From Chloroflexota bacterium (lineage in GTDB: Bacteria; Chloroflexota; Anaerolineae; Anaerolineales; Villigracilaceae): a DNA stretch of 64,000 nucleotides. Numbering within the stretch: position 1 is the first letter of the stretch; every line of letters starts with the position of its first letter. Location of the stretch: NCBI GenBank assembly GCA_026390015.1, contig JAPLGS010000107.1, forward strand, positions 1 to 64,000. Reading direction: 5' to 3'. The notes beneath the pieces were generated by a model. That model made no database searches, was not told the origin of the DNA, and was given only the letters and a program-made list of their open reading frames with translations. Of the stretch, positions 516 through 16,815 are shown piece by piece. The position numbers and the translations under genes were made by a program.

Positions 516-544
516 ATTCTATCATCCCGAATTTGAATCGTCAA
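516..544 (-). promoter_or_regulatory. Sigma-70-type promoter of tRNA-Glu
   Basis: On the minus strand a TTGACG -35 box and a TAGAAT -10 box are separated by exactly 17 bp. Transcription would start about 15 bases before the tRNA 5' end. The -35 box overlaps the last codons of the lutBC gene. Confidence 0.75.
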
Positions 545-2552
545 CGAACACGTGAATTTCCTTCGGGCCGTGCACGCCGATGGTGAGAGTCATTTCAATA
601 TCTGCTGTGCGCGACGGCCCTGTGATGAAGACCGCCGCACTTTTATCTTTGACCAGGCCCATTGCGTTTGGCAGTGAGGAAAGGATGTCGGATGATTTTA
701 ATATTGCGATGTGGATCTCTGGAAGGAGTGATGCGTGCAACGGTCTCCCTTCTCCATCCGCGATCAAAATGGAGCCTGTATCTGCCAGCCCGCAAATAGC
801 ATTCGTCACGCCGACAAGGATTTGATCGTCAGAAGTATGTGTGAATTCGATGCTCGCTTCCTGCAAAAGTGATTCGTTCAATGTATTCGGCTCAAGATGG
901 ATCTTGCTGATTCGGCGAGTGTTGAGAAATTCAATGATTTTTTGCGTTGGGTTTTTGGTGATTGTTACATGTCCGCTTAGGGCGGTGAGTTCTTTGGTGA
1001 ATTGTTCAATTTTATTTCCCTTGAGTTCAATCTCTTCAGCTGTTGCACTTTCTGCAGCAGGTCGAATTTTTGGCGTGAAGCGTTCGGACTCCACGATGTT
1101 TTTCTTAATAAAATCTTCTCGAAATGTTTTTCCTGCAAAACGCGGAAAGTCTTTGCTATAGCCCCAGCCAGTAAATGCGGGCAGACGAATCCACTTTGAG
1201 CGCGGAGAGAGGAGATAAGTTCCCAGTGCAGCGAATTTTTGGGAGGCAGCATACAGCTTCGGGTGAGTCGCGAGGCGGGCGTATAGTTGCAGACCAATTT
1301 TTGTAGAGGAGGAAAGTCCTTTTCCGCCGCCAACTGCGGGTTGAGTCGAAGATCCAGCCCGTACACGAGTTAATAATTTCGGGAGATCAATATCCACGGG
1401 GCAAACATCTTTGCACGCGCCGCAAAGGGATGAAGCTTGCGCAAGTTGCACATAATTCTCGCCTAGCAATCCCGGCGAAATTACCGAACCGATTGGACCG
1501 GGATATGGCGCGATGGATTGATCACTGCCAATGTAGGCGTGACCGCTCAACTCGCGGAAGACTGGGCAGGCATTCAGGCACGCGCCGCAGCGGATGCAAT
1601 ATAAAGATTCCTTAAGCGGAGAATTTCTTAAGCGCGTGCGGCCGTTATCGAGGAGGATGAGGTGGCGCGTTTGATTTGCAAGTGGTTTGTTGAGCAGTTG
1701 AGCGTAGGCAGTTAACTTTTGTCCGGTTGCGGAGCGAGGCAAAAGCGACAGCATGAGCGACAGATCATTAAGGTTTGGGACGAGTCTTTCCATGCCCATC
1801 AGCGCAATGTGGACTGGCGGTATGGTTGTGACCATGCGCCCGTTGCCTTCGTTGGTGATGATACAGGTTGTGCCAGTTTCAGCCACGCCGAAATTAACTC
1901 CGCTGAATCCTATATCGGCGGTTAGGAAAACTTCACGCAGAACTTTGCGGGCGGCCGCAGTGAGTGTGGGAATGTCGGTTGTGTAGGGAATGCCAAGTTT
2001 TTCATGGAAGAGTTCGCCCACTTGTTCCTTGCGTAAATGCGCGGCGGGCGTGATGATGTGACTTGGTCTTTCGTGGCGCAGCTGCACAATGTATTCGCCC
2101 AGGTCGGTTTCGATGACGCGAATATTTTCTTTTTCAAGCGCGTGATTTAATTCGATCTCTTCGGAGACCATGCTCTTGGATTTGGCGATAATAATTGGAG
2201 ACGCAGATGAACGCTGATGAGCACTGATCTCTTTTTGGTTTTCTTTGTGCGCCTGTGGCAAATCTTTTAAGATTTGTAAAATAATTTGAATGGCTTCGGC
2301 CGCGTCTTTTGCGCGATGAACGATGACTCCATTCTCTTCGTTCTTTGCGATGAATTGCGCCAGATATTCGTCGAGCTGTTCGATCACATTATCGCGGATG
2401 GTGTGCGCGCGCTGACGTCTCTCGCGCCAATCGGGAATGGATTCGAATGCGAGTGCGCGCCCTTTCAAACGGCGTTCAGCGTTGTTATCTAATGCGATCT
2501 GAAGAGTTTTATTTTCAATGGATTGGCGAATTCTTTGACGGAAGGTATGCAT
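522..2552 (-). CDS. lutB: LutB-LutC fusion: lactate utilisation iron-sulfur protein
   Basis: A 676-residue cytosolic protein of the LutABC lactate oxidation complex. The N-terminal LUD domain covers roughly residues 40-285 (GVAETGTTCIITNEGN motif). A ferredoxin-like region follows, with CIRCGACLNACPVF near 319-330 and a second cluster CGACKDVCPVD near 377-386. The last 140 or so residues form a second LUD module like stand-alone LutC (GLADTGSILIADGEGRP), so LutB and LutC appear fused. The ATG at 2552 is preferred because it follows an AAGGA Shine-Dalgarno and begins MHTFRQRI as in the family. A TTG 13 codons upstream overlaps the lutA stop. It lies directly after lutA in one operon. Residues about 106-119 (KEISAHQRSSAS) are encoded by a repetitive word and look inserted. 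Confidence 0.88.
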   Translation of the reverse strand: MHTFRQRIRQSIENKTLQIALDNNAERRLKGRALAFESIPDWRERRQRAHTIRDNVIEQLDEYLAQFIAKNEENGVIVHRAKDAAEAIQIILQILKDLPQAHKENQKEISAHQRSSASPIIIAKSKSMVSEEIELNHALEKENIRVIETDLGEYIVQLRHERPSHIITPAAHLRKEQVGELFHEKLGIPYTTDIPTLTAAARKVLREVFLTADIGFSGVNFGVAETGTTCIITNEGNGRMVTTIPPVHIALMGMERLVPNLNDLSLMLSLLPRSATGQKLTAYAQLLNKPLANQTRHLILLDNGRTRLRNSPLKESLYCIRCGACLNACPVFRELSGHAYIGSDQSIAPYPGPIGSVISPGLLGENYVQLAQASSLCGACKDVCPVDIDLPKLLTRVRAGSSTQPAVGGGKGLSSSTKIGLQLYARLATHPKLYAASQKFAALGTYLLSPRSKWIRLPAFTGWGYSKDFPRFAGKTFREDFIKKNIVESERFTPKIRPAAESATAEEIELKGNKIEQFTKELTALSGHVTITKNPTQKIIEFLNTRRISKIHLEPNTLNESLLQEASIEFTHTSDDQILVGVTNAICGLADTGSILIADGEGRPLHASLLPEIHIAILKSSDILSSLPNAMGLVKDKSAAVFITGPSRTADIEMTLTIGVHGPKEIHVFVDDSNSG

Positions 2553-2587
2553 GTTGAGTCCTTGAAAACGTTGAAGTAATTCAACGT

Positions 2588-3313
2588 TCAAATGTTACTT
2601 AATACTTCCGCAATATGGATGACTCTTTGTTTCTTCTTCTGCCGATTTAATCCGCCCGCGATGTGCATGAGACAGCCTGCGTCGGTCACGACCAGAGTTG
2701 GGGATTGGGTCATCTCTAAATTGCTGATCTTGCGTTTCAGCCATTCGGCGGATAATTCAGGATGTTCCACTGACATGATTCCGCCGAAGCCGCAGCATTC
2801 TTCGGCGTGCGGCAATTCAACAAGTGTGGCGCCCCGCACGTTTGCCAATAAGGCGCGCGGCTGTTTATCCACATTGATTCCGCGCAGCGTGTGGCATGAT
2901 GGATGATAGGTTAGCAAGCCGTCCCAGTGTGCGCCAACATCTGTCACGCCTAATTTGTCTACTAGATATTCTGTGAATTCATAAGTCCGCGCTGCTAGTG
3001 CTTTCGCGCGCAGAATCCAGGTTGGGTCGCCTTCAAATAATTCTGCATAGTTATGCCTGAACATGTGCGCGCACGAACCGGATGGCGTGACAATATCGCC
3101 CGTTGTCTTTTCGAAAACTTTTATGGTGTGTTCCGCAATGGCGCGCGCGTCTTTGCGGAGGCCTGCGTTAAATTGCGGCTGTCCGCAGCAGGTTTGCTCG
3201 CGGGCGAAATCCACATCAATGCCGAGGCGCAGGAGAATTTCTACGACGGCTTGACCAGTTTTCGGGAAGAATGAATCGGCGAGGCAGGTAATGAAGAGTT
3301 GGACTTGAGTCAT
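2588..3313 (-). CDS. lutA: LutA-type (Fe-S)-binding protein, lactate utilisation
   Basis: A 241-residue protein with two cysteine-rich CCG modules. The first is QTCCGQPQFNAG with a preceding ITCLADSFFP. The second is YHPSCHTLRG with HAEECCGFGGIMS. Such modules bind an iron-sulfur cluster. In Bacillus, LutA works with LutB and LutC to oxidise L-lactate to pyruvate. The stop codon is nearly adjacent to the lutBC start, so the two are translationally linked. The junction carries AACGTT-rich repeat words. Length is typical for the family. Confidence 0.9.
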   Translation of the reverse strand: MTQVQLFITCLADSFFPKTGQAVVEILLRLGIDVDFAREQTCCGQPQFNAGLRKDARAIAEHTIKVFEKTTGDIVTPSGSCAHMFRHNYAELFEGDPTWILRAKALAARTYEFTEYLVDKLGVTDVGAHWDGLLTYHPSCHTLRGINVDKQPRALLANVRGATLVELPHAEECCGFGGIMSVEHPELSAEWLKRKISNLEMTQSPTLVVTDAGCLMHIAGGLNRQKKKQRVIHIAEVLSNI

Positions 3314-6760: not shown

Positions 6761-7105
6761 ATGTTCCCCGAAATCACAGCCACCGAACTTGGTGACAAAC
6801 TAAAGTCAGATGAAAAATTTATTTTATTGGATGTGCGCGAACTGTCAGAGCTGGAACATGCCAAAGTAACCGACAGCAGGCTGCAGATCACACCTATGAG
6901 TCGGCTGGCGAGCGAAGGTATTGCCGCATTATCCGAGTCTGTTCAATCTCAGGAAATTCCCGTGTATGTGATGTGTCATCTTGGCGGCCGCAGTATGCAA
7001 GTCACAGGCTGGCTCATTCAACAAGGATATAAAAATGTGTTCAACGTCAGCGGCGGCATTGATGCGTACGCTCGCAAAGTTGACTCTTCAATTGGGTTTT
7101 ACTAA
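6761..7105 (+). CDS. Rhodanese-domain protein
   Basis: A 114-residue single-domain rhodanese. It has the opening LLDVRELSELEHAKV and the active-site loop CHLGGRS, in which Cys would carry a persulfide, followed by VFNVSGGIDAYARKV. No signal peptide is visible, so it acts in the cytosol. An AAGGAAAA Shine-Dalgarno precedes the ATG. The substrate and sulfur acceptor are unknown. It is 51 bp downstream of the glycogen phosphorylase gene and may be cotranscribed with it. Confidence 0.85.
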   Translation: MFPEITATELGDKLKSDEKFILLDVRELSELEHAKVTDSRLQITPMSRLASEGIAALSESVQSQEIPVYVMCHLGGRSMQVTGWLIQQGYKNVFNVSGGIDAYARKVDSSIGFY

Positions 7106-7289: not shown

Positions 7290-7504
7290 AAGTGACATCA
7301 CCTCCTCCATTTCATAGAATGGCATTTAATTGTTTGCCCCCAGCAGTAATGAAAGTATGTCACAAAATAAATCGGATGTCAATAGGTGGAATTGAAATTC
7401 TCATAAAACTGTAATGCTGCATTTTTGACGTTTTGTGATACCTTTTGAGAGTCTCCGCCAGACAATCACAGTTATCCTTGCTGAAATTCAATCAGGAGAA
7501 ATGT

Positions 7505-9100
7505 ATGAAAACCAAACCCACCAAACTATGGATAATTGTGTTTGTTCTCGGCTGGCTGTTCGATTTTCTATTTTGGAAGCAAGCGCCCGGTATTAATTTC
7601 GCCATTTTTGCCACCGTCTGTCTGACTGCGGCTTTCTATCTTTTGTTGAGCGATGGGCTTCGCCCGAGTCGCACCAGCCTGATTCTGATTCCGTTATTTG
7701 GATTCTTCGCCGCTGTGACAGTGATCCGCGCCGAGCCGATGACGATCTTCCTCGCGTATTCATCCACACTTTTGATGATGACTCTGCTTGCAGTCAGTTA
7801 TCTGGGCGGGCGCTGGTATTTATATACCAGCATTGATTACGTGAGTAAATTCGTGCAATTGTTCGGAAGCCTGCTTGCGCGGCCGATCACCTTTATGAAC
7901 GATATCCGTAAAGCGCAGATTGAAGCTGGATTTCAACCGGCAAAACGCAATATCTGGCCGGTGGTGCGCGGAGTTGTCATCGCACTGCCCATCATCGCAA
8001 TCTTCGCATCTCTGCTTGCTTCAGCAGATGCGATCTTCGGCCAACGGCTGACAGATATCATTAAATGGTTCAACATTGAAAACCTGCCAGAATTGATCTT
8101 TCGTCTTGTTTATATTGTCATCATCGGATATGCGCTCGCAGGGGTTGTGCTGCATGCCGCCACAGAATCAAAAGATGAGAAACTCATCAATGATGACAAA
8201 CCCTTCGTGGCGCCATTCCTCGGCTATATAGAATCAACGATCGTGCTGGGCAGCGTGATTGCGCTTTTTCTCGCGTTTGTGATCATTCAATTTCAATATT
8301 TCTTCGGCGGCACAACTAACATTCACATTGACGGATTTACCTACGCCGAATATGCGCGCCGCGGTTTCGGTGAATTGGTGACGGTGGCATTTTTTGCATT
8401 GCTTCTATTCCTTACTTTCAGCGCCATCACCAAACGCGAATTTGAATCTCAGCGCAAGATATTCTCAGGGCTGGGCGTGACGCTAGTCACTCTCCTGCTG
8501 GTCATGCTCGTTTCGGCGTATCAGCGTCTCGGTCTGTATGAAACGGCGTACGGCTTCTCTCGTTTGCGCACGTACACGCACGTGTTCCTGATCTGGATCG
8601 GGCTGCTGCTTATCGTCACCATCGCTCTCGAAATTCTGCGCAAGGAACGTATGTTTATGTTTGCCATGTTGATCGCCGCGCTTGGATTTGCAATGTCGCT
8701 GCCCATCCTCAATGTGGACGCGTTCATCGTGAATCAAAATATTCAACGCGAAATCCGCACACAGAAAAATAACAACGCGGATCTGGATGCGCAATATTTT
8801 CTGGATCTGTCTGATGACGCGGTTCCAGCAATGGTAAAAGCGTATCAGACTCCATCCCTGCCTGCTCCTATCCGAGAGAAAGTTGGCGCGGCTCTGGCAT
8901 GTGTCCAATACACACGCATACTGGACACACGCGAATTGCCGTGGCAGTCATTTCAATTCTCAGCTTTCAACGCAGATAAAGCGTTGGTATTAATAAAGAA
9001 TGATTTGAAAGGATTTGTAGTTGACGAGAAAGAATTCCCGAATAAAGTTACAAATCCATCGGGTGAAGAATTCTACTGCTCATCATATTATTCAGATTAA
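7505..9100 (+). CDS. DUF4173/DUF4153-type polytopic membrane protein
   Basis: A 531-residue protein with about 10-12 hydrophobic segments in residues 1-430, followed by a soluble C-terminal part (about 440-531) that begins after IVNQNIQRE. The motif NIHIDGFTYAEYARRGFGELV is characteristic of the DUF4173 family; its function is unknown. The ATG at 7505 is chosen because CAGGAGAA lies directly upstream and the following MKTKPTKLWIIVFVLGW starts the first membrane segment. A TTG 20 codons upstream is less likely. It has no operon partner. Confidence 0.8.
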   Translation: MKTKPTKLWIIVFVLGWLFDFLFWKQAPGINFAIFATVCLTAAFYLLLSDGLRPSRTSLILIPLFGFFAAVTVIRAEPMTIFLAYSSTLLMMTLLAVSYLGGRWYLYTSIDYVSKFVQLFGSLLARPITFMNDIRKAQIEAGFQPAKRNIWPVVRGVVIALPIIAIFASLLASADAIFGQRLTDIIKWFNIENLPELIFRLVYIVIIGYALAGVVLHAATESKDEKLINDDKPFVAPFLGYIESTIVLGSVIALFLAFVIIQFQYFFGGTTNIHIDGFTYAEYARRGFGELVTVAFFALLLFLTFSAITKREFESQRKIFSGLGVTLVTLLLVMLVSAYQRLGLYETAYGFSRLRTYTHVFLIWIGLLLIVTIALEILRKERMFMFAMLIAALGFAMSLPILNVDAFIVNQNIQREIRTQKNNNADLDAQYFLDLSDDAVPAMVKAYQTPSLPAPIREKVGAALACVQYTRILDTRELPWQSFQFSAFNADKALVLIKNDLKGFVVDEKEFPNKVTNPSGEEFYCSSYYSD

Positions 9101-9143: not shown

Positions 9144-9214
9144 CAGCTCGATGACGTAAGAACCCACTCTCATTGACTGTCTATTCACTATTCCCAATTC
9201 CCAAAGGACTGACA

Positions 9215-9826
9215 ATGAACTTCAAACTAACCATCTTCTCCGATTACATCTGACCGTGGTGCTATGTCGGCCAGGGTGTGGTCGACCTATTGAAAGCTGA
9301 ACACAAAGTGGATGTAGACTGGCGTCCATATTATTTGCGCCCTGATACTCCGCCAGAAGGCATGGACTTGCCTGATTACATTCTACGCGCGCGTGCCAGT
9401 GGTGCGGATGATCGTCTGCAAAACATGGCGAAGATGCATGGCATGCAGTTCAAATCCACCGAGCGCATCTACAACACACGCCTCGCGCATGAGGCCACGG
9501 AATACGCGCGCGAGCACGGCAAGATCAACGAATATCATCGCGTGATCTTTCGCAAAGTCTACGCCGATGGACAGGACATCAGCAAATGGGATGTCCTGCG
9601 CTCTGCCGCAGAAGAGGTTGGTTTAAATGCTGATGATATGCAAGCGGTCGTGGATAGTGGAAAATATACCGCCGAAGTAGCGGAGCAGGTTCGCCATGCC
9701 CAGGAAATTGGCGTGACAGGTGTGCCAACCTATGTCATCAACGACCGTTATGCAATTGTCGGCGCCCAGCCATATGAAGCCTTCAAAAACGCGCTGTCAC
9801 AGATTTCGAATATGAAAAACGAATAA
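9215..9826 (+). CDS. Probable selenoprotein: DsbA/FrnE-family thiol oxidoreductase (UxxC)
   Basis: A 203-residue protein of the DsbA/FrnE (2-hydroxychromene-2-carboxylate isomerase-like) thioredoxin fold, read through an in-frame TGA at 9251-9253. The ATG at 9215 follows AAAGGA at 6-base spacing. The N terminus is MNFKLTIFSDYI-(TGA)-PWCYVG, so TGA stands exactly where the first Cys of the family's DYICPWC motif belongs. Residue 13 would be selenocysteine and Cys16 its partner. The rest is intact: WRPYYLRPDTPPEG, FRKVYADGQDIS and the cis-Pro loop GVTGVPTYVIND. A 7-bp hairpin with a 7-nt loop starts 12 nt after the TGA. No signal peptide is seen, so it should act in the cytosol. The alternative is a nonsense mutation or read error in an otherwise intact gene. 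Confidence 0.82.
9251..9286 (+). promoter_or_regulatory. Candidate bacterial SECIS element
   Basis: After the TGA (9251-9253), GTCGGCC (9266-9272) pairs with GGTCGAC (9280-9286) through seven pairs, one of them G-U. The loop is AGGGTGT. The loop begins 19 nt after the TGA and has a G at its second position. Bacterial SECIS elements are described as lying just after the UGA with an apical loop roughly 16-37 nt away and a G among the first loop bases. They recruit SelB. The element lies inside the coding region, as in other bacterial selenoprotein genes. Confidence 0.7.
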
Positions 9827-13710: not shown

Positions 13711-16700
13711 CTACAACTTTGCGAACCGACTGACCACCTTCGCCGCCGTGGCGGGACGATCCACCACAGCGCCTTGATGAATGAGAATTGGCGTGCCTTC
13801 CTTTATGTAAGCTTTATCCAAATACGCCTGACCTGTGATGAACCTCTGTCCATCAATCGCGCAGGAGGTGACGAAGCCAATGCGCTCGCCGTTGATATTC
13901 ATCACAGGGTCGCCGTTATGCGCCATGCGCACGCGCTGATCGTCAAATGTAAAGCGGATGACCACGCCTTTGCGTTCCTTCTCTCTTGCAACATAAGCGT
14001 CCCGCCCGATGAACCACGGTTTGTACGGTTTCACATAAGAACCAAATCCGCCTTCGGCAACACCTAAATCTCTGCCGTCAAATTTGCCGGACCCGAGTCC
14101 CATTTCGTGACCATACAACGGCAAGCCTGCCTCGGTGCGTAATGAATCTCTCGCGCCCAAACCAATGGCTTTGACGCCGAACTGTTCACCCGCTTTCATG
14201 ACCGCGTTCCAGAAATCCACGGCGCGTTCAGGGTGGACAAATAATTCAAAGGCCAGCTTCTCGCCCGTGTAGCCTGTGCGCGAGACGATCAGGTCAAATC
14301 CGCCAACCACGGCATCGCATAATTCTGTGCGCTTTAATTTCATAATGTTCGCGCGGGTTGCATCGTCGACGCCCATTGCCAACAGAATGTCGCGGCTCTT
14401 TGGGCCTTGCAGGGCAATATCCACCCGCATGGCAGAACCAGCTTGCGGGTCACGCAGGTTGCGGAGGTCTGCGTTATATCCATAAGTCCGCGCCCATGCT
14501 CGATCGTTATCGATCTTTACTTTTCCATCACGCACACTTTCAAGCCATGTGCGATCCTTGTCATCGTTGGACGCGTTGACAACCACCAGATAATTATCCC
14601 AGCCGCGGCGATAGACGAGTGTGTCGTCTATCACGTCTGCATCGGGCGTGAGGAAATGCGAATACAAAGACTCGCCGGGCTGAAGCCCGCCGCAGTCGTT
14701 GCCACAGACTGTATCGAGGAACGAAGCCGCGTCTGCGCCGCGTACATCGTAGACGCCCATGTGCGAAACATCGAACAAGCCCGCCGCGTTGCGCGTGGCC
14801 AGATGCTCCTCAAAAATCCCCGTGTACTGCACAGGCATTTCCCAACCCGCGAAGGGCACCATTCTGCCGCCGCTGGATTTATGGACTTCATATAACTTCG
14901 TTCTTTTGAGGATTTCCGCTGGTTCAGTCCATTCAAAGGATGGCAGTGCATCTTCCTTGAACTGTGAGTTGACTCCAACAAACCAGGGCTTGACTCCGCC
15001 TTTGAGCGGGGGAACGGTCACCGTTAATTTGGCTTTGGCTTCATCCACAACAAATGCACCTGGCATTCGTTTCGCGCTGAAATCTTTTGTGCCATCCAAA
15101 TTAAAGGATGTGTATCCATCTGAAAGATCGCGCAGCCAGGTAGCTACTGCCGATGCGTTCTTGACAGGCACCGCCAATTGGTAGGTGATGTTATCCACGT
15201 TCTTCAGCATGCCTTTGATTACACCTTTAGGAGTTGCAATGGAAGTTACCTGAGTCTTGCCCTTCTTCAATACGGAAAGATCAGAAGACAGCGCATAATC
15301 CAAAACCTGCCGCACACGTTGGCCGCTCAATTCATAGACACCGCTCGTGGATTTATCATCAACATAATAGAAATGCGGATACCCGCTTTTTTTAAATTTG
15401 AAATCAATGCCCGCGCTTTCAGCCAACTTTCTAACCTTCAAACGCGCAACGTTCAACACGTTGAAATCAAGTTTGGCGCGGCGCTGTTTGCCTTTCTTGA
15501 CGGTATCCACTGAATGAGGCGCACAGGCTTCGAGCACGTCTGCCATGATGTTTGCCAGTTCACGCGTAGACTTCTCGTTGAAACCGCGCTGAGTGATCCA
15601 GGGCGTTCCCAATCGAATACCTGATGGGTCAGCTGAGTTCCTATCACCGGGGATGGTGTTGCGATTAACCACCACGCCGACGATATCCAAAATGCGCGCG
15701 GCTTGATCGCCACTTAATTTGGTTCCATCTTCACCGACAATTGAAGTCACATCCACATTCAGCATGTGCGTATTCGTTCCACCAAATGGAATTCGGAAGC
15801 CGCGCTTCTTGAACTGGTCCGCCATGGCCACCGCGTTCTTGATCGTCTGCGTCTGCAGTTGTTTGAATTGTTTGGTTTGCGCCAGTTTGAAAGCCACCGC
15901 CAGCGCGGCAAAGATGTGAACGTGAGGTCCGCCCTGCTCACCTGGAAAAACAGCTTTATCGAGTTTCTTCGCGATCGCTGCGTCGGTTGTCAATAGCACC
16001 GCGCCGCGTGGACCGCCCAGCGATTTATGCGTTGTAGACATCACCACGTGGGCGTATCCGATCGGCGAGGGCGTAATGCCTGAAGCCACCAATCCGCCAA
16101 TGTGTGAAATATCTGCCAGCAGGTACGCGCCAACTTCATCGGCGATCTCGCGGAACTTCTTCCAGTCGGGAATCCATGAGTAGGATGAATATCCGGCGAT
16201 GATCATTTTGGGTTTGCTTTCCACTGCCTGAGCGCGAATCTTTTCGTAGTCTAGTTTTTCGTTCTCATCCACATTGTAGTGAACGATCTTGAAATATTTG
16301 CCGCTGCGGTTGACCGACGAACCGTGCGAGAGATGTCCGCCATGCAGCAGGTTCATGCCCATTACCGTGTCGCCGGGCGTGACGAGAGCGTGATAGACCG
16401 CGTTATTAGCGGGCGCGCCGGACAATGCTTGAATGTTGACATAAATCTGATCGGGCTTGAATCCGTTCCCAGCGAAGGCTTCTGCGGCGCGGCGACAGGC
16501 AAGCGACTCAACTACGTCGGCATATTCCACGCCCTTGTAATAACGCGGATCGCCGCTGCGGCGGTATTCAGCCAGCCGCGCGGGATAATCGAGGATATCT
16601 TCTTCTGCCATTCGGCGCAGATCATCGTCGGGATAGCCCTCCGCGTAGATGTTCTGGAAAACGGAACCCATCGCGTCACGCACCGCTATCGGAGCGACGG

Positions 16701-16815
16701 ATTCGCTGGGGATCAGGATCAGTTTTCTGGCCTGCCTCTCAGCTTCCAGTTGAGTCAGATCGAAAACGTCACGGTCAAGTTTGGCTAAGTCGCCACGAAA
16801 TAGAAAATCGGACAT
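13711..16815 (-). CDS. Serine hydroxymethyltransferase / aminomethyltransferase (GcvT) fusion
   Basis: A 1034-residue fusion linking serine-glycine conversion to the glycine cleavage T-protein, both tetrahydrofolate dependent. Residues 1-455 are SHMT, with the pyridoxal phosphate lysine at about K264 in [13 protein letters not shown] roughly 25-residue insertion lies between AEGYP and RYYKG. Residues 640-1034 are GcvT ([32 protein letters not shown]). The 185-residue middle piece resembles a decayed copy of the GcvT N-terminal half: [16 protein letters not shown] aligns with [15 protein letters not shown], and VKPWFVG with YKPWFIG. The ATG follows an AGGAG site. The adjacent lpdA product could act as the L-protein of glycine cleavage. 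No glycine riboswitch is visible upstream. Confidence 0.9.

Follow-up and report, generated by a model that had tools for sequence, protein, structure and literature searches.

The gene at 9215–9826 of the window (the 64,000-nucleotide stretch of contig JAPLGS010000107.1 that was analysed) is almost certainly a working selenoprotein gene, in which the UGA at codon 13 would be translated as selenocysteine (Sec) in the active site of an FrnE/DsbA-type oxidoreductase. We base this on the Sec machinery of the genome, on the recurrence of TGA at codon 13 among relatives, and on hairpin codons that are frozen in the TGA genes and changed in five TGC genes. The reading frame contains a single in-frame TGA, at codon 13 of 203, within the motif DYI-U-PWCYVG, and thus on the first cysteine of the CPWC active site; the translation also contains WRPYYLRP and GVTGVPTY. 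The preliminary description of this DNA had reported an otherwise intact frame with its TGA at this cysteine, the PWCYVG, WRPYYLRP and GVTGVPTY signatures and a proper Shine-Dalgarno sequence, all of which we find (Table 1). Among the 46 TGA rows, 36 have AAGG, AGGA, GGAG or GAGG in the 18 nt that precede the aligned start. As that description had also anticipated for automatic gene callers, the standard-code ORF list begins the frame only at the GTG at 9278, and so cuts the gene at its active site.

Table 1. Features of the selenoprotein locus and its conserved upstream neighbours, in window coordinates.
Feature	Position	Strand	Basis
Single-domain rhodanese-like protein, farther upstream, kept in part of the relatives	6761–7105	+	neighbourhood comparison
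DUF4153 protein, upstream neighbour, kept near the gene in relatives	7445–9100	+	neighbourhood comparison
AAAGGA, Shine-Dalgarno-like, 6 nt 5′ of the ATG	9203–9208	+	sequence
CDS, predicted FrnE/DsbA-type selenoprotein, 203 residues with Sec13; ATG at 9215, stop TAA at 9824–9826	9215–9826	+	frame, Pfam, structure matches
Sec codon, UGA predicted to encode selenocysteine, Sec13, at the first position of UPWC	9251–9253	+	Sec insertion itself predicted
Cys16, the sole Cys of the protein, at the second position of the UxxC pair	9260–9262	+	translation, alignment
Predicted bacterial SECIS hairpin, 8-bp stem (9266–9273/9279–9286), 5-nt loop GGGUG (9274–9278), UGA to loop 20 nt	9266–9286	+	synonymous freeze and constraint scan
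GTG where the standard-code ORF list begins the frame; inside the hairpin, probably no real start	9278–9280	+	ORF list
Pro171 of GVP, taken to be the cis-Pro position by family resemblance	9725–9727	+	invariant in 26 of 26 aligned rows

The genome itself (4.3 Mb, 177 contigs, 95% complete) encodes the complete set of selA, selB, selD and tRNA-Sec with a UCA anticodon for which the preliminary description had proposed a search. The tRNA-Sec (64.4 bits, above the Rfam cut-off) is located on the window's own contig, where ARAGORN confirms its TCA anticodon. SelB (360 bits, above cut-off) carries the SelB-wing_2 and SelB-wing_3 Pfam domains, and SelA and SelD score 555.6 and 356 bits, respectively. 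We note that the SelD gene (L018:1402–2463, minus strand) has one in-frame TGA of its own, in the context CAG-U-ASK, with a hairpin, GACGCAGGUUCUGCGUC, downstream of it at a UGA-to-loop distance of 33 nt, and is likely, on this sequence, a second selenoprotein of the genome.

Among 14 control genomes, tRNA-Sec, SelB, SelA and SelD were above cut-off in five, two, one and two, respectively. Of the 44 genomes with TGA at codon 13, SelB and tRNA-Sec occur together in 35 and at least one of them in 42, in a scan of the 121 surveyed genomes whose stricter tRNA-Sec filters lose weak matches. Neither SelB above cut-off nor tRNA-Sec turned up in three of the 51 genomes that carry a TGA gene, namely G014 and G017, which are 71% and 78% complete, and G074, which has a member of the distant subfamily but is 93% complete. 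The five TGC genomes also retain SelB above cut-off (5/5) and mostly tRNA-Sec (4/5). Across the 121 genomes the association between a TGA gene and the Sec machinery is weak (p 0.057) and suggestive at most, SelB or tRNA-Sec being present in 105 of them anyway.

The distribution of TGA at codon 13 was followed through these 121 genomes, which comprise the window's own and 120 relatives. In 49 of them a homologue with 45% identity or more extends over the codon, which is TGA in 44 and TGC in five (G051, G053, G055, G012 and G024); G001, with only a C-terminal fragment, lies outside the 49. In the alignment with Cys-containing homologues that the preliminary description had recommended, Cys falls at codon 13. 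Among 52 named loci, codon 13 is TGA in 22, a search whose query had Cys at this codon and in which one of six peptide patterns favours Cys genes; identical stretches from the two collections were counted once, by DNA, and L137 has no match over codon 13. In seven further genomes a less similar homologue also aligns a TGA with codon 13, and the copy in G086 contains additional stops. Sampling 298 genomes across the class gave matches at E 1e-25 in 29, of which 28 carry a TGA within the frame that matches; eight of the 29 are already among the 121 and, for the other 21, TGA was counted anywhere in the frame. Outside the main subfamily, three loci (L123, L124 and L127, in G074, G075 and G077) belong to a distant DsbA subfamily (UPWCFMAESGLDSL) with TGA at the same codon and a different hairpin, whose spacing is 24 and whose loop, GGUCU, is presumably that of fdhF. 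In addition, G048, which has a member of the main subfamily, also encodes a 26%-identical paralogue (L135:1028) with TGA in D-T-V-U-P-F-C.

Downstream of the UGA, the window RNA can fold at 9266–9286 as GUCGGCCA-GGGUG-UGGUCGAC, a hairpin that the preliminary description had not noted. Across 45 different TGA genes, all with 60% identity or more, the codons that form this hairpin, codons 17–23, are nearly frozen synonymously, with a mean relative entropy of 0.11 versus 0.72 at 57 other conserved codons and 0 of 100000 permutations as low; the segment was chosen after the alignment had been viewed, and codon 29 is invariant too. Among rows with the common residue, codon 19 is always GGC, codon 21 always GGT and codon 22 always GTG, and codon 18 is GTC in 44 of the 45 genes. 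In the five TGC genes with at least 60% identity the frozen codons are gone: in all five, codon 18 is GTG or GTT and codon 19 is GGT.

The published model of the bacterial SECIS specifies a loop of 3–9 nt with a G in its first two positions, a stem of 4–16 bp, a UGA-to-loop distance of 16–37 nt and an MFE of −7.5 or lower (PMC13188914). The window hairpin lies within all of these limits (loop 5, stem 8, GG, spacing 20, hairpin energy −11.8; −12.6 for 50 nt in RNAfold). A scan with the same constraints, which allowed uninterrupted stems only and applied the −7.5 threshold to the hairpin alone, found such hairpins in 44 of 54 TGA genes (one of which, L139, has further internal stops) versus three of 36 Cys genes, and at 3.0% of 7020 other in-gene positions and three of the window's 155 other Cys codons. 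Of the ten TGA genes outside the limits, seven miss by 0.3 kcal/mol, forming the inner six pairs of the same hairpin (−7.2), and L125, L129 and L132 are clear failures with no fitting hairpin. L122, at 46% identity, has other residues at codons 21–23 and still keeps a six-pair stem. The folding energy itself is unexceptional, with a z of −0.07 against shuffles and, against synonymous recoding, a mean z of −0.6 over the 45 genes and −1.2 for the window, and the SECIS argument therefore rests on the synonymous freeze and the constraint counts. An Rfam search of 9150–9450 gave no match.

These comparisons also bear on the other ways in which the frame might be explained. A nonsense-mutated pseudogene or a one-codon sequencing error would be in keeping with a lone in-frame stop near the 5′ end and a shorter ORF beginning at GTG 9278, but would have to accommodate the same TGA in the 44 of 49 genomes and 22 of 52 named loci described above, as well as the frozen hairpin. 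That dozens of genomes assembled independently of one another have TGA at codon 13 excludes a read error, and the preliminary description had argued that a random nonsense mutation would seldom strike the very codon where Sec takes the place of Cys in redox families; moreover, the dN/dS of 0.055–0.113 on the 3′ side of the TGA, against seven relatives (six TGA, one TGC), implies that the part beyond the stop is translated. By these sequence comparisons the gene is neither a pseudogene nor an error, and we give that explanation hardly any credence. We consider it just as improbable that translation starts after the TGA, at GTG 9278, to yield a shorter protein without the CxxC, even though the standard-code ORF begins at that very codon. 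At codons 5–12 the protein is conserved (98–100% in all but two of the eight columns, which reach 80 and 87%) and the codons vary synonymously, so that translation begins upstream of the TGA; M1 is present in 37 of 45 rows, and residues 3–9 form strand 1 of the predicted fold.

That UGA is decoded as Cys or another amino acid instead of Sec would accord with the Cys at codon 13 in homologues, but it is at odds with the complete set of tRNA-Sec, SelA, SelB and SelD in the genome and with the seven of 35 window ORFs of at least 200 aa (ORFs, not all of them confirmed genes) that terminate in TGA. Nor does it sit well with hairpin codons that are frozen in TGA genes and altered in the five TGC genes, and the chance that it is correct seems to us very slight. 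Among the window's 136 ORFs read through TGA, 14 were inspected by eye, and none of these has a TGA inside an evident conserved motif. Decoding of codon 13 as Sec is the reading that we adopt in what follows.

The protein matches Pfam DSBA (PF01323) with 144.6 bits versus a cut-off of 25.6, and five NCBIfam matches are weak, none of them above cut-off. The nearest solved sequences are those of D. radiodurans FrnE (E 1.5e-28) and S. coelicolor SCO1869. A model built from 26 aligned sequences, with Sec entered as Cys, has a mean pLDDT of 95.2, and the solved structures that resemble it most are FrnE entries (Z 26.6, rmsd 2.1 across 202 residues; Foldseek E 1.4e-15). Invariant in the 26 rows are D10, C13 (Sec in the TGA rows), P14, C16, L26, A91 and P171. 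The predicted fold is thus that of FrnE, together with the CP(W/F)C active site of that subfamily, in which Sec would replace the first Cys. The C-terminal CxxxxC of many, although not all, FrnE proteins is absent, with no Cys after residue 16; two FrnE proteins are named as lacking this motif, which hence does not define the family (PMC8945050). A signal peptide could not fit before strand 1 of the model, which already comprises residues 3–9; we therefore regard a cytoplasmic location as probable, in line with the prediction for FrnE (PMC8945050).

In the scheme that we infer, for Sec insertion, cellular location, redox direction and recycling partner alike, a ribosome reaching the UGA would be served by SelB with Sec-tRNA-Sec, held by the hairpin that begins 12 nt past the UGA, and Sec13 would be inserted. 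The product would probably be a cytoplasmic FrnE-type thiol-disulfide oxidoreductase of DsbA fold with Sec as the attacking residue, in which Sec13 attacks, Cys16 resolves and Pro171, which we take to be the cis-Pro, lies beside both. Its most likely activity would be the reduction or reshuffling of disulfides in cytosolic proteins. Because it has no further Cys, and hence no C-terminal CxxxxC of the kind found in D. radiodurans FrnE, the enzyme is probably regenerated by an outside reductant.

In a tree of 53 rows, all at least 45% identical, built with codon 13 masked and with L100, L121 and L138 left out, the Cys state, present in seven rows, requires five changes. The count is five at both ends of the 5–95% bootstrap range as well, four of the changes are forced by starred branches, and a topology with all Cys rows in one clade is rejected (p-AU 2.7e-7). 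L122, the one long-branched outgroup row on which the rooting rests, suggests a root within the Sec part, in which case the five changes would likely run from Sec to Cys. Four of the five fall in genomes with SelB, and the fifth, in the hosts of L074 and L075, is outside that count. Among the Cys genes, L111 can still fold into a fitting hairpin (−10.5), which is perhaps a relic. From this tree and the codon comparisons, we lean towards the view that in Anaerolineales and their kin the enzyme was ancestrally a selenoprotein with an almost invariant SelB-binding hairpin, and that Sec gave way to Cys about five separate times. If so, these genes would offer naturally replicated cases in which to ask why Sec is retained or lost.

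Among 30 compared loci, the window included, a relative of the upstream DUF4153 protein is present in at least 16 and one of the rhodanese-like protein in at least 10, both undercounts since most of the flanks compared were 3 kb or shorter. Elsewhere in the window, an ORF of 1034 aa at 13711–16815 (minus strand) combines, in a single frame, a serine hydroxymethyltransferase domain (PF00464) with a glycine-cleavage T-protein domain (PF01571), an apparent SHMT-GcvT fusion. A 689-aa ORF at 522–2591 (minus strand), with a LUD domain, a 4Fe-4S domain and a weak LutB_C match below cut-off, looks like a fused lactate-utilisation-type protein.

The novelty implied by the preliminary description is not supported, as DsbA-like UxxC selenoproteins are a listed family. 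Nine such sequences were reported from the Sargasso Sea in 2005, under COG2761 (PMC1088965), followed by four DsbA-like selenoproteins in 2006 (PMC1794560), 63 'DsbA 1' in 2008 (PMC2398784) and 45 proteins from 41 organisms in 2016 (PMC5029168), and the family is listed in 2026 as 'DsbA-like protein form 1' (PMC13188914). In the portions of the literature on that family available to us we found no Chloroflexota members, and no title or abstract opening found among work on the selenoproteins of Chloroflexi or Anaerolineae describes this subfamily. UxxC recoding in DsbA-like proteins is thus already known, and the window gene adds a member with unusually clear comparative evidence; the repeated Sec/Cys exchange is the less expected part. 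It is also the most useful new point, because the 2006 table shows a dash for Sec-to-Cys changes in DsbA-like proteins (PMC1794560). The gene points to the use of selenium in a disulfide enzyme of an environmental bacterial group, and the presence of Sec and Cys forms in near relatives could show directly what selenium gives the enzyme.

With the known DsbA-like UxxC selenoproteins (COG2761/PF01323), to which we liken it by domain and motif, the window protein shares the Pfam family and a UxxC with Sec first, whereas the subfamily described here is mostly Sec and has a sequence-frozen SECIS. The closest solved structure by both sequence and fold is that of D. radiodurans FrnE (5cnw, 5coh and 5cp1), which shares the CPWC-type active site; D. 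radiodurans FrnE, however, has Cys in place of Sec, and also has a C-terminal CxxxxC, described as having a regeneration role, that is missing from the window protein. Like the SECIS of E. coli formate dehydrogenase genes, the predicted SECIS of the window gene is a hairpin after the UGA with a small loop beginning with G and the 16–37 nt spacing of the published model, but it has its own stem sequence and the loop GGGUG.
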